From NCBI GenBank assembly GCA_003162415.1, contig PMOL01000011.1, positions 324,383-388,382 on the forward strand: a DNA stretch of 64,000 nucleotides, given 5' to 3'. The notes beneath the pieces are model-generated. The model made no database searches, had not been told where the DNA came from, and saw nothing but the letters and a program-made list of their open reading frames with translations. A program made the translations under genes and the position numbers. Every line of letters begins with the position of its first letter. Position 1 is the stretch's first letter. Source of the stretch: Candidatus Dormiibacterota bacterium. Lineage in GTDB: Bacteria > Chloroflexota > Dormibacteria > Aeolococcales > Aeolococcaceae. Below are positions 42,478-47,639 of this stretch, piece by piece.

Positions 42478-43344
42478 CTAGTAGCGAGTGACCTTCATTG
42501 AGAAATCCAACGCCACCGCCGAATGCGTCAACGCACCGACGCTGATGTAATCCGCCCCGGCCAGCGCGTACGCGCGGGCGTTGGTCACCTGGACTCCACC
42601 GCTCACCTCGACCGTCGCACGGCCGCGGATCAACTGCATCGCCTCGCGTACCTGTCCGCAGGAGAAGTTGTCGAGCAGGATGTGCGACGCCTTGTCGGTG
42701 AGCGCCTGCTCCAGCTCCTGCAGGTTGCTGACCTCGACGTGAATCTCCATCTCGGGATAGGCCTTGCGTGCGGCCCGCAGCGCCGGGGTGATCCCGCCGA
42801 CGAGCGCGAGATGCGTGTCCTTGATCAGCACCGCGTCGTAGAGCCCCATCCGATGGTTGACGGCGCCACCCATGCGGGTCGCGTACTTCTCGATGGCGCG
42901 CAGCCCTGGCGTGGTTTTGCGGGTGTCGAGGATCTGGGCTTTGGTGCCGTCGACCGCCTTCACATACTTCGCGGTCATGGTCGCGATCCCGCTCAGATGC
43001 TGGAGGAAGTTGAGGCCGACACGCTCCGCGGTCATCATGCCGCGCGCCGGTCCGAAGAGCCGCGCAACGATCTGATCCGCCTGCACCTTCTCGCCGTCCT
43101 TGGTCTTGGCGTCGAACTGGATGCGCTCGTCGACACGCTGGAACACGCGCTGCGCGATGCTGAGGCCGGCAATCACGCCGTCCTGCTTGCAAACGATCTT
43201 GCCGCGACAGGTCATATCCATGGGAATGACGGCCTGGGTGGTGACATCGCCAGCTCCGACGTCCTCGGCGAGCGCAGACTCGATGAGCAAGTCGATGCTC
43301 TCCGACGAAAGCGCCTCGGTGATGGGTCTAAAGGTGACGGTCAA
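42478..43344 (-). CDS. nadC: Nicotinate-nucleotide pyrophosphorylase (quinolinate phosphoribosyltransferase)
   Basis: This 288-residue enzyme converts quinolinate and PRPP to nicotinate mononucleotide in de novo NAD synthesis. Family sequence is clear: EDVGAGDVTTQAVIP, ERVGLNFLQHLSGIATMTAKYV, ILDTRKTTPGLRAIEKYA (active-site Arg/Lys), GGAVNHRMGLYDAVLIKDTH and the late VEVSGGVQV. The start is a TTG with GAGGAG nine bases upstream; no ATG fits. It overlaps nadB by 17 bp. Together with NadB it supplies two steps; nadA is not in the window. Confidence 0.95.
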   Translation of the reverse strand: MTVTFRPITEALSSESIDLLIESALAEDVGAGDVTTQAVIPMDMTCRGKIVCKQDGVIAGLSIAQRVFQRVDERIQFDAKTKDGEKVQADQIVARLFGPARGMMTAERVGLNFLQHLSGIATMTAKYVKAVDGTKAQILDTRKTTPGLRAIEKYATRMGGAVNHRMGLYDAVLIKDTHLALVGGITPALRAARKAYPEMEIHVEVSNLQELEQALTDKASHILLDNFSCGQVREAMQLIRGRATVEVSGGVQVTNARAYALAGADYISVGALTHSAVALDFSMKVTRY

Positions 43345-44911
43345 AGCGTGCTCCTCTGTCCTTGTGCATGACGAGATCGCCATGCCATTGATCGCTTGCT
43401 TGGGGGAGATCAGAACGGAGGTGGCACCCACGGCTCTCCTCGCGAGCCAGGGCTGCTTCGCACACCAGTGTGGCGGTGGATGCGGCTGAGTGCAGCTGCA
43501 TCGCCGGCAGCGCAGTGGCGCCCGCTGTCGCTGCCGCAACGCGCTCGCACTCACGAGCCGCCGCGCGCAGACCGGATTCGTCTCGCACCACGCCGGCTCC
43601 AGTCCAGAGCACGTCGCGGAGCGTGTTCCATCCCTCGCGAGGATCGACCTTTGAGGCACGCGTGCTGGTTGCCCGCTGCACCGGTGCTGCCTGCGGCGGA
43701 GGCGATTCCGCCGCCCAACCCAGCGCCGACTGCACGGCGCGCCGCGAGAAGACCACCGACTCGAGCAGGCTGTTGCTCGCCAGACGGTTCGCCCCGTGGA
43801 CGCCGGTGTACGCAACCTCACCGCAGGCATAGAGGCCGGGGACGCTGGTCGCGCCGTCGAGGTCGGTCCTGACCCCGCCGATCATGTAATGCGCCGCAGG
43901 CGAAACCGGGATCGGATGGCGCGCGATGTCGAGACCGTAACGAGCACACGTCGCCGCGATCGTTGGGAAGCGCACCGCCGCACGCGCTCCGAGCGGCGAG
44001 CAGTCGAGGAATACGCAGGACTCACCGGTGCGCTGCAGCTCTTCCCAGATGGCCCGGGCGACGACGTCCCGGCCGGCCAGCTCGCCGCGCGGATCGGCGT
44101 CGAGCACGAAGCGCTTGCCGTCGCGATTGACGATCCACGCGCCCTCGCCACGGACCGCCTCGCTGATGAGGAACCGGGGCGCGCCATCGACGGCGAGCGC
44201 GGTGGGATGGAACTGAGCGAATTCCATCCCCGCGACATCGGCGCCCGCGGCATAGCCGAGCGCGACGCCGTCGCCGGTTGCGGATTCGGGATTGGTGCTG
44301 TTCCGCCAGAGCCGGCTTGCACCGCCGCTGGCCAGAACCACCGCCCCAGCCGACAGCGTTGTCGTGTGCGACTCGGCGGGATTGGTCGTGATCGACACAC
44401 CGCAGCCCGCGCCGTCGGCAGTGGTGAGGATGCCGGTGACATCCGCATGTTCGATGACCCGCGCACCACTTGCGCGCAGACGCCGGATCAGGGCGGTTTC
44501 CACCTCGAGCCCGGTCGCGTCGCCACGCGCATGGAGAATGCGCGGGCGCGAGTGTGCCGCCTCCTGGGCGAGCAACGGCTCACCGTCCTGGCTGTCGAAT
44601 GCGACGCCCCATTCAATCAACTGGCGAATGCGCGCCGGGGCTTCCTCGACGAGAACGCGCACCGCCTCCGGATGGCAGAGCCCGCGGCCCGCGGCAACGG
44701 TGTCCTGGTAATGCAATTCCGGTGAGTCATCCTCGCCAACCGCGGCTGCGATACCGCCCTGCGCGAAGCGGCTGCAGCCGTCATCGAGCGCGCCCTTGGT
44801 GACCACCGCAACTCGTGCCCGAGGCGCGGCCGTAAGAGCAGCCGATAAGCCTGCTATGCCACTCCCGACCACGACCACGTCGTAATCCGTCGGTGCGGCC
44901 CCGTTGATCAC
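43328..44911 (-). CDS. nadB: L-aspartate oxidase
   Basis: This 527-residue flavoenzyme oxidises aspartate to iminoaspartate for quinolinate synthesis. The FAD dinucleotide motif VVVVGSGIAGLSAAL begins the chain. Also visible are DDGCSRFAQGGIAAAVGEDDSPELH, the FAQFHPTALAV active-site region, RGEGAWIVN and CGEVAYTGVHGANRLASNSL. GTG start overlapping the upstream short panD frame (GTGA). The C-terminal tail overlaps the nadC start. Confidence 0.95.
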   Translation of the reverse strand: MINGAAPTDYDVVVVGSGIAGLSAALTAAPRARVAVVTKGALDDGCSRFAQGGIAAAVGEDDSPELHYQDTVAAGRGLCHPEAVRVLVEEAPARIRQLIEWGVAFDSQDGEPLLAQEAAHSRPRILHARGDATGLEVETALIRRLRASGARVIEHADVTGILTTADGAGCGVSITTNPAESHTTTLSAGAVVLASGGASRLWRNSTNPESATGDGVALGYAAGADVAGMEFAQFHPTALAVDGAPRFLISEAVRGEGAWIVNRDGKRFVLDADPRGELAGRDVVARAIWEELQRTGESCVFLDCSPLGARAAVRFPTIAATCARYGLDIARHPIPVSPAAHYMIGGVRTDLDGATSVPGLYACGEVAYTGVHGANRLASNSLLESVVFSRRAVQSALGWAAESPPPQAAPVQRATSTRASKVDPREGWNTLRDVLWTGAGVVRDESGLRAAARECERVAAATAGATALPAMQLHSAASTATLVCEAALAREESRGCHLRSDLPQASDQWHGDLVMHKDRGARFDRHL

Positions 44912-45075
44912 GCGGTCGCCGCCTGCTCATGTACGCGGTTGCCGGCGTCGACATGCACGATCATCGGAATGACATCGATATCGGCGTCCCACAGCAAAGC
45001 GGGCGCACTGCCATACGACCTTTCGAAGTCGACCGTGGCGCGGTGCATTTCCGACCTCATGATGACCCGCTGCAT
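44908..45075 (-). pseudogene. panD: Truncated aspartate 1-decarboxylase (PanD) remnant or minimal form
   Basis: Only 55 residues remain of a protein normally about 115-130 long. The start MQRVIMRSEMHRATV matches the PanD N-terminus. YGSAP retains the Gly-Ser autocleavage site (Gly22-Ser23), and the end VHVDAGNRV resembles the VDxxNGxR segment. The C-terminal half, including the catalytic Tyr and Asn regions, is missing because the stop overlaps the nadB start (GTGA). A ribosome binding site (GGGGAG) and the panC-panD-nadB context show this is the panD locus. Beta-alanine must come from elsewhere if the pathway works. Confidence 0.6.
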
Positions 45076-45083
45076 GATCTCCC

Positions 45084-45983
45084 CTAGACGCCACGAACAA
45101 CGGGCGCTGTGTCGACCCCCAGCCGAACGACATCAATCAACCGTGTGCTCCCTATTCTAGCAGCCAGTACGATTTGGTTTGTGGGGGCTGCCTTTTCGAC
45201 CTCGGTGAAGTCTTCCGCCTTTACCACGGCAACGTAGTCCACGTCCAGTCCGGCGTTCTCCAAGCAGGACCGAACAGTTGTTGCCAGCGCTGTCGCGTCC
45301 TGCTCCCCGGCATCGAATTGTCCGATCGCGGTGGCCAGGCTTGATGGAATGGCCCTTGCCCGCACTCGTTCTTCGGGGCTGAGATACACGTTGCGGCTGG
45401 AGATGGCGAGCCCGTCGGTGTCCCGAACCGTAGGGCACACAACGATTTCGACGCCGATGTCGAGGTCGCGGACCAGGCGGCGGACCACGGCGCACTGCTG
45501 CGCGTCCTTCTGCCCGAAGTAGGCGCGGTCGGGGAGCCCGGCAACGAGCAATTTGGTGACGACCAGCGCGACCCCGTTGAAATGGCCCGGGCGGCTGGCA
45601 CCCTCGAGGCGCTCACCGAGCGGACCCGTGATGTCTAGCCGGGTCACCTGGCCGGGCGGGTACATGGTCTCGACGCTCGGGACGAAAGCGGCGTGCACCC
45701 CCGCGGTCGCGAGCATGGCGAGGTCGGCGTCCATGCTTCGGGGGTAGCGGGCGAAGTCCTCATGCGGGCCGAACTGCGCCGGGTTCACGAAGATGGTCAC
45801 GACCACACGGTCGTTCTCCGCGACGGAGCGTTCGATCAGCGCGCGATGACCGGCATGCAGGGCGCCCATGGTCGGCACCATCCCGACCGAGAGGCCCGCG
45901 GCGCGGCAGGCCAGGGACCACCGCCGGAGGTCGTGTGGGGTCGAGAGGAGCTCCGGGGTGCTAGTGGAAGGAGTGGGCATCAT
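45084..45983 (-). CDS. panC: Pantothenate synthetase
   Basis: This 299-residue enzyme joins pantoate and beta-alanine using ATP. The nucleotidyltransferase motif is MVPTMGALHAGHRALIERS (HxGH type). VTIFVNPAQFGPHEDFARYP, GASRPGHFNGVALVV, RAYFGQKDAQQCAVVRRLV and LAISSRNVYLSPEER follow. The start is taken at the ATG at 45983, which overlaps panB by 23 bp; an ATG one codon later is possible. An open frame extending to 46058 is a shadow of panB. Confidence 0.95.
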   Translation of the reverse strand: MMPTPSTSTPELLSTPHDLRRWSLACRAAGLSVGMVPTMGALHAGHRALIERSVAENDRVVVTIFVNPAQFGPHEDFARYPRSMDADLAMLATAGVHAAFVPSVETMYPPGQVTRLDITGPLGERLEGASRPGHFNGVALVVTKLLVAGLPDRAYFGQKDAQQCAVVRRLVRDLDIGVEIVVCPTVRDTDGLAISSRNVYLSPEERVRARAIPSSLATAIGQFDAGEQDATALATTVRSCLENAGLDVDYVAVVKAEDFTEVEKAAPTNQIVLAARIGSTRLIDVVRLGVDTAPVVRGV

Positions 45984-46764
45984 CAGGGAACCGGCCCTCG
46001 CGGACATCGTCGGCATACGCGCGCGCCGCGCTGACGATGGTGTCGCCGAGGTCGGCATACGTCTTCACGAATTTCGGTGCGACGCCGCGGATGTGACCGG
46101 TGATGCCGAGCAGGTCGTGGATGACCAGCACCTGCGCGTCGCAATCGGGGCCGGCGCCGATGCCGATGGTGGGAATCGTCAATTCGCGGCTCACCTGTGC
46201 CGCCAGGTCCCGCGGTATCCCCTCGAGGACGAGCGAGAAGGCGCCGGCGGCCTGAAGAGCATGCGCATCGGCGAGGAGGCGCTCGCGGTCGCTCGCACTT
46301 CTTGCCTGGACTCTCATACCACCGAATGCGTTGACCGACTGCGGGGTGAGGCCGAGGTGGCCCATCACCGGTATGCCCCGCTGGGTCAGGTGCGCGACCG
46401 TGTCCACCACCCACCCGCCACCCTCGAGCTTCACGGCGTGCATGCCCGCCTTCAGGTAGAGGACGGCATTGTCGACGGCGTCGGCGCAAGAGCGTTGGTA
46501 GGCGCCAAAGGGAAGGTCGCCGACCAGCAGCTGGTCGGGGGCGCCGCGCGCCACCGCGCGGGCGTGGTGGAGCATCTCGGTCATGGTCACCGGGAGCGTG
46601 TTGGGGTAGCCGAGCACGTTGTCCGCGAGCGTGTCCCCGACCAGGAGCACCGGCACCTCCGCCTCGGCGAGGAGGCGCGCGGTCGGGTAGTCGTAAGCGG
46701 TGAGCATGATGAAGCGCGTTCCCGCCGCCTTCCAGGCCGCGAGGTCCCGGATGGTGATGGCCAC
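45961..46764 (-). CDS. panB: 3-methyl-2-oxobutanoate hydroxymethyltransferase
   Basis: This 267-residue TIM-barrel enzyme makes ketopantoate from alpha-ketoisovalerate and 5,10-methylene-THF. Key segments are MLTAYDYPTARLLAEAEVPV, LVGDTLADNVLGYPNTLPVT (Mg2+-binding Asp), AVKLEGGGWVVDTVAHL, GHLGLTPQSVNAFGGM and IGIGAGPDCDAQVLVIHDLL. It overlaps panC by 23 bp. The one-carbon donor connects it with glyA in the first operon. Confidence 0.96.
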   Translation of the reverse strand: MAITIRDLAAWKAAGTRFIMLTAYDYPTARLLAEAEVPVLLVGDTLADNVLGYPNTLPVTMTEMLHHARAVARGAPDQLLVGDLPFGAYQRSCADAVDNAVLYLKAGMHAVKLEGGGWVVDTVAHLTQRGIPVMGHLGLTPQSVNAFGGMRVQARSASDRERLLADAHALQAAGAFSLVLEGIPRDLAAQVSRELTIPTIGIGAGPDCDAQVLVIHDLLGITGHIRGVAPKFVKTYADLGDTIVSAARAYADDVREGRFPDDAHSFH

Positions 46765-46766
46765 GG

Positions 46767-47639
46767 TCAGGCGACCTGGGCGCTGCCGTCGCCTGCGACC
46801 GGCCGGCTCGCGTCGGGCCGGGTCGCGACCAGCGACTCCATCGCGCGGGTGAGGTGGAGGTAGAGATCCCGCGCGTCGGGGTAGTTGGCGAGCGCGTCGA
46901 GGTGGGCGGCGATGGCGTCGGTATCGCCGCGTGCGACCGGCCCGGTGAGGGCTGCGGCCGGCCCGGCACGGCGGGCGTTGTGCGCCGCGCCCTCGAGCAG
47001 TGCCGACAGCGCGGCGTGCGCGGTCTCGGCGCTCAGCCCGGTCGCCTCGAGCAGCCGCGTGGCCTCAGCGAGCAATGCCAGGGGAGCGTTGCCCGCGAGA
47101 ACCGCGGCCGCGTGATAGAGCGGCGCGCTGGCCGGGTCGATCTCGAGCGGTGTGGCGCGAAGCGCCGCGACCAGACCCAGCAGACGCACGCGCAGGAGTC
47201 CGCTCGCATCCACACGGAAGTAGGCCCCATCCATGAGGGACGCGCTGTCCGGTCCGGCCAGCGCCTGGAGCGGATGGAGCACGCCGACCTCGGCGCCGGT
47301 GACGCGCAGCGACGCGATCAGCTCGGGGCCGAAACGCGCACCCAGGTGGACGACGCCACGACCGTCGAGCGAGATCCCGGAATCCGCGATCGATGCCGCG
47401 ACGGTCGCGATTGCGCTATCCGGGACCGCCAGCAGGGTGAGGTCGGCAACGGACGCGGCTTCGAGCGGCGTAGCCACGGCCTGGGCTCTGACCGTGTGCG
47501 CGAGCCGAGCTGCCATCTCGCCTCGGCGACTGGCGACGGCCGCCACGCGATACCCGGCGTCATGTGCGGCGATCGCCAGCGCGGAGCCGGCCCGGCCCGC
47601 ACCGATGATCGCCAGCGACGGCGTGCCTACTCCGTCCAC
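46767..47639 (-). CDS. Rossmann-like DUF2520 protein, candidate ketopantoate reductase
   Basis: This 290-residue protein has an N-terminal NAD(P)-binding motif (LAIIGAGRAGSALAIAAHDAG), and a conserved LLAVPDSAIATVAASI. A C-terminal helical DUF2520 domain (from about residue 150) includes PLYHAAAVLAGNAPLALLAEA. DUF2520 proteins commonly lie beside panB/panC in genomes lacking panE, so a role as the missing ketopantoate reductase is a reasonable inference, not proven. It is separated from panB by only 2 bp. Confidence 0.85.
   Translation of the reverse strand: MDGVGTPSLAIIGAGRAGSALAIAAHDAGYRVAAVASRRGEMAARLAHTVRAQAVATPLEAASVADLTLLAVPDSAIATVAASIADSGISLDGRGVVHLGARFGPELIASLRVTGAEVGVLHPLQALAGPDSASLMDGAYFRVDASGLLRVRLLGLVAALRATPLEIDPASAPLYHAAAVLAGNAPLALLAEATRLLEATGLSAETAHAALSALLEGAAHNARRAGPAAALTGPVARGDTDAIAAHLDALANYPDARDLYLHLTRAMESLVATRPDASRPVAGDGSAQVA

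Follow-up and report, generated by a model that had tools for sequence, protein, structure and literature searches.

The 55-codon frame between panC and nadB in this Candidatus Dormiibacterota genome is best explained, with a probability of about 0.7, as a decayed panD that has lost its enzymatic role and would have been kept as a leader frame coupling translation to nadB. The broader proposal, that this enzyme gene has repeatedly and in parallel been turned into an initiation device for nadB, such that the CTG start of most genera would work only via coupling, is held with slightly better than even confidence. The evidence read directly from the sequence comprises the anatomy of the remnant, its catalytic loss, the repeated reduction of the gene, the invariance of frame and overlap, the lack of constraint on the peptide and the conservation of a -10-like element. 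Under the proposed mechanism, ribosomes would start at the strong panD Shine-Dalgarno sequence and ATG and produce a short peptide that is itself unimportant. At the TGA, which overlaps the start of nadB (as GTGA in this genome and mostly as CTGA in other genera), they would terminate and then initiate again on nadB, a gene with a weak ribosome-binding site of its own. A promoter-like element in panC may give rise to an internal transcript covering panD, nadB and nadC, of which panD would be the first frame. With β-alanine presumably available otherwise, the enzyme would be dispensable whereas the open frame would still be required, such that only in-frame internal deletions would survive.

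Anatomy of the panD remnant

The window (the whole stretch of 64,000 nucleotides that was analysed) carries on its minus strand tilS and ftsH, both assigned by eye from their translations, followed by DUF2520, panB, panC, the 55-codon frame, nadB and nadC. The features discussed below are:

46767..47639, minus strand: DUF2520/Rossmann-like protein gene, upstream of panB
45961..46764, minus strand: panB, intact
45084..45986, minus strand: panC, intact
45154..45162, minus strand: extended -10-like element TGCTAGAAT, inside panC, preceding the start of the remnant by about 80 nt
45076..45084, minus strand: Shine-Dalgarno sequence of the remnant (GGGGAG) with its spacer, immediately at the panC stop; unchanged in 7/7 genomes of the genus
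44908..45075, minus strand: remnant panD frame, 55 codons; approximately residues 1-35 of PanD fused in frame to the last 20 or so; TGA overlaps the nadB GTG
44912..44930, minus strand: 3' end of the remnant (EQAATA codons), containing GGCGG, the weak Shine-Dalgarno-like sequence of nadB
43328..44911, minus strand: nadB (L-aspartate oxidase), GTG start within the GTGA overlap
42478..43350, minus strand: nadC, intact, start approximate (the mechanical ORF at 42478-43830 is too long for nadC, as it extends into nadB)

The 55-codon frame at 44908-45075, which lies between panC and nadB and is translated as MQRVIMRSEMHRATVDFERSYGSAPALLWDADIDVIPMIVHVDAGNRVHEQAATA, was confirmed, together with the good Shine-Dalgarno sequence (GGGGAG) and the stop overlapping the nadB start that the first-pass annotation had reported; the TGA of the remnant shares bases with the GTG of nadB to give GTGA. 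Neither Pfam PF02261 nor NCBIfam searches detected the frame, and its relation to PanD emerges only from nucleotide alignment and from a family-specific profile, built from the intact PanDs of the family and two PanDs of a second type. Comparison with PanD profiles, as had been suggested alongside the annotation, gave a divided answer: PF02261 is not matched, whereas the family-specific profile matches in two pieces, its positions 2-41 being covered by residues 1-35 and its positions 100-119 by residues 35-54. Alignment of the DNA with the intact panD of the congeners G002 and G005 reveals deletions of 15 nt and 177 nt, both in frame. Judged by these alignments, the remnant is a panD that retains both of its ends and has lost, by in-frame removal, the core containing the active site; it is not the C-terminal truncation previously described, in which half of the protein was thought to be missing from the end.

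The catalytic residues of PanD, which we take to be Lys9, Arg54, Thr57, Tyr58 and Asn72 in E. coli numbering, have all been affected. Position 9 is Glu in the remnant, Lys9 being changed in 9/10 of all the family remnants described below, and the region containing Arg54, Thr57, Tyr58 and Asn72 is deleted. Without Lys9 and the residues of the active-site core, the remnant cannot be an aspartate decarboxylase. The Gly-Ser autocleavage site noted in the original annotation is indeed present, but it is displaced by two residues (22-23 instead of 24-25) and has been lost in several other remnants. Profile searches found no full PanD or other PF02261 match elsewhere in the genome, which is 89.8% complete, and the search for a second panD proposed earlier was correspondingly negative; the claim that panD is defective and that PanD-based β-alanine synthesis has been lost here stands.

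Parallel reduction of panD across the family

At the panC-nadB junctions readable in the incomplete draft assemblies of this family, 10/26 contain a remnant of 24-59 codons and 16/26 a full PanD. Within the genus of the window genome, G002 and G005 encode a PanD of 119 amino acids, G003 has the same 55-codon remnant as the window genome, G001 and G006 have remnants of 58 and 59 codons with a breakpoint differing from that of the 55-codon form, and G004 has one of 50 codons. In other genera, remnants are found in G015 (32 codons), G024 (27), G020 (40), G008 (37) and G031 (approximately 24). As close relatives have the same kind of frame, it is not noise.

All ten remnants share the start of panD and run to an NTGA that overlaps the nadB start, and none is frameshifted, a pattern that could partly reflect recent deletions; later indels inside the remnants of the genus are multiples of three. 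The G008 and G020 remnants are highly diverged, yet remain open and end on the overlap; they are barely matched by the PanD profile, and their homology is based on position and on partial similarity of both ends. A tree of PanB, PanC and NadB implies at least seven independent reductions (G031, G020, G024, G008, G015, G004 and the clade of G000, G003, G001 and G006), with weak support (20-63) for some deep branches near G008 and G015, which belong to different genera and have different remnants. The differing retained pieces suggest that the clade of four itself underwent two reductions. If the frame were kept with a probability of 1/3 in each event, the probability of its being kept in 7/7 would be (1/3)^7 = 4.6e-4, the number of events being modest. 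Across 80 broader panC loci, no remnants were found, and 31 have a full PanD nearby.

Divergent PanD-like proteins in which Gly-Cys replaces Gly-Ser at the cleavage position are encoded at L019 and L020 (genus g14; G019 and G023), in genomes that gave no PanC match. A second, different type of PanD is present in G031, G022 and G030 (L216:118-528, L218:1821-2231 and L219:1965-2375), its genes adjoining a pair that, by eye, looks HigB/HigA-type.

Constraint on the peptide and on the frame

The dN/dS of the remnant is 0.55 for the pair G000/G003 and 0.92 for G001/G006. For the same two pairs, the values are 0.10 and 0.13 for panB, 0.17 and 0.29 for panC, and 0.07 and 0.05 for nadB, while that of the intact panD (G005/G002) is 0.12. 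Compared with nadB, the remnants show more nonsynonymous change (Fisher p = 8e-7 for the first pair and 1.5e-5 for the second); when the remnants are pooled, synonymous and nonsynonymous rates are no different (p = 0.53). By these rates the remnant peptides are evolving almost without amino acid constraint, and the purifying selection on protein that a member of PanD would show is not seen. The features that are conserved, as far as the aligned remnants reveal, are the start, the overlap with nadB and an uninterrupted frame between them. The earlier impression of a junction shaped by selection and not by chance was in this respect correct.

Probable coupling of nadB to the upstream frame

In 26/26 loci, an NTGA overlap is found at a distance of 10-19 codons upstream of the NadB FAD-binding motif, and in 17/26 the overlapping codon is CTG. 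Apparent CTG starts overlapping the upstream stop are a feature of nadB in most family genomes (e.g. L038, L040 and L041), and in several genomes (G009, G014, G015, G008, G021 and G025) the open frame ahead of the FAD-binding motif contains no ATG, GTG or TTG. Because CTG is generally a poor start codon, it is plausible that nadB depends on terminating ribosomes. The Shine-Dalgarno-like sequences of nadB are mostly weak; in the genus of the window, GGCGG is weak but present (about -5.8 kcal/mol), so coupling may be partial there. Two properties expected of a coupling leader ORF are found here: a stop/start overlap at 26/26 loci and a frame kept in 10/10 remnants while the peptide varies. Among panD-less relatives from the neighbouring family f2, nadB directly overlaps the panC stop in two of three readable cases (TGATG at L208 and GTGA at L210), with a near-adjacent GTG at L209.

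A promoter-like element within panC

In 23/25 aligned family genomes, the panC codons for A-[AG]-R are GCT-GCT/GGT-AGA, giving TG[CG]TAGAAT; the two exceptions have TACAAT and TACCAT. The element is conserved through synonymous codon choice, and AGA is seldom used elsewhere in these genes. The f2-f4 relatives that were readable at this panC site do not have the nucleotide motif. Genome-wide, there are 16 occurrences of TGNTANAAT and 6 of the reversed pattern, and 8/16 of the TGNTANAAT sites are just upstream of long frames, compared with 24% of random positions (p = 0.024, which is marginal). This enrichment near ORF starts lends modest support to a promoter role for the panC element. A scan for conventional -35/-10 consensus sequences found nothing, with no recognisable -35.

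Within the genus, conservation of the DNA is higher between the -10-like element and approximately the eighth codon of the remnant than over the remainder of panC; about 120-150 nt at 45043-45200 of the window are nearly invariant in seven congeners, beyond the coding needs of PanC. RNA structure in the leader was considered as the cause of this conservation and rejected, there being no Rfam match, a fold z-score of 0.24 and only a weak consensus structure. Separately, at L237, L238, L239 and L242, TGNTANAAT is followed by an ATG 15 nt on, possibly giving leaderless transcripts, and the sequences upstream of it (GAAC..GTTTG) presumably resemble LexA operators.

Alternative explanations

An ordinary pseudogene, in which panD is decaying and the frame is still open by chance through recent deletions in GC-rich DNA with few stops, would account for the near-neutral evolution of the peptide and the lost catalytic residues, and high GC does make stop-free frames common. 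It would not readily explain why each of at least seven independent reductions preserved the frame up to one and the same nadB overlap (p about 5e-4), why the strongly diverged G008 and G020 remnants stay open to that overlap, or why no broken intermediate occurs among 26 loci, and it is considered unlikely. The possibility that the deletions represent an assembly artefact collapsing a full panD arises because all of the genomes are draft assemblies; however, several genomes have different breakpoints, two pairs share theirs, the flanks are clean and intact PanD was assembled in sister genomes, such that this explanation can be given very little credence.

A functional short peptide, either a mini-decarboxylase working with a partner or a regulatory leader peptide, would be consistent with the conserved frame and start and with the unusually high conservation, in the genus, of the DNA between the -10 element and roughly codon 8. 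Against this, Lys9 is changed in 9/10 remnants, Gly-Ser is unconserved, the core is missing, dN/dS is near neutral, lengths range from 24 to 59 codons with differing breakpoints, and no significant RNA structure (z 0.24) or Rfam family was identified in the leader. Such a role therefore seems improbable, and the short PanD working with a partner that had been envisaged in the first-pass annotation is unsupported, given the loss of Lys9 and the active-site core from a nearly unconstrained peptide. Retention of the decayed gene as a coupling leader for nadB remains the favoured reading.

Supply of β-alanine

PanC is present in 88/110 genomes of the class, and searches of genomes from f2, f3 and f4 gave no convincing PF02261 match; hence panC without panD is not peculiar to the window genome. 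Loss of panD with another β-alanine route in place has been described, for example the beta-alanine synthase of R. etli (PMC7142369). Of the alternative routes whose presence had been proposed as a check, decarboxylases do occur, but with and without PanD alike: PLP decarboxylases (PF00282) are found in most family members and all genus members. The three in the window genome look like an aromatic amino acid decarboxylase, a GADL1/CSAD-like and an MfnA-like protein, none scoring above an equivalog cut-off, and the MfnA-like decarboxylase is found in only 6/61 relatives. A TIGR02033 hydantoinase is present in 3/7 genus members. The TIGR01879 amidohydrolase, which could finish pyrimidine degradation in f2-f4, where it is common, is nearly absent from the family of the window and matched in 1/10 remnant genomes. 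A single replacing route was rejected on the basis of these distributions.

Uptake of β-alanine from soil is possible for the window organism. G031 has a reduced operon panD and other PanD copies elsewhere in its genome, which look like a replacement of the operon copy. A PF00282 decarboxylase gene lies directly upstream of another PanD copy in this genome (L217:593-1951 and 2030-2467).

Implications and comparison with known systems

These loci would represent a natural experiment, replicated at least seven times, in gene death inside an operon without silencing of the neighbour, and would make translational coupling visible from sequence alone. They also serve as a warning that short 'truncated' operon frames may be leftovers of expression, rather than enzymes or errors, and raise the question of how β-alanine is supplied in these bacteria and, apparently, in much of the class. 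The limited library of literature searched held no clear precedent for decayed genes being kept for coupling; the kind of mechanism is already known, and what lacks a clear precedent in that library is that it should apparently have arisen again and again through an enzyme gene shrinking in frame.

The remnant shares with PanD (PF02261, a pyruvoyl enzyme) its operon position, its start signal and the first 35 and last 20 or so residues, but differs in lacking the active-site core, in the replacement of Lys9, in being silent to Pfam and NCBIfam and in the absence of constraint on its peptide. As in the R. etli case (PMC7142369), panB and panC are kept without PanD; there the replacing route is beta-alanine synthase, whereas here TIGR01879 matches only 1/10 remnant genomes. 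Four-nucleotide overlaps are the usual architecture of termination-reinitiation, as at ATGA and GTGA (PMC6728339, PMC10666635), and the panD-nadB junction likewise combines such an overlap with a weak downstream initiation site; by contrast, the upstream frame here is a decayed enzyme gene, and the overlapping start would in most of the family be CTG rather than the usual ATG or GTG. A review describes short upstream frames whose sole task is to hand ribosomes on to the next gene (PMC12548453). The remnants agree with these in being short and in the unimportance of their peptide sequence, and differ from them in their source, an enzyme gene that was repeatedly shortened by internal deletions in frame.
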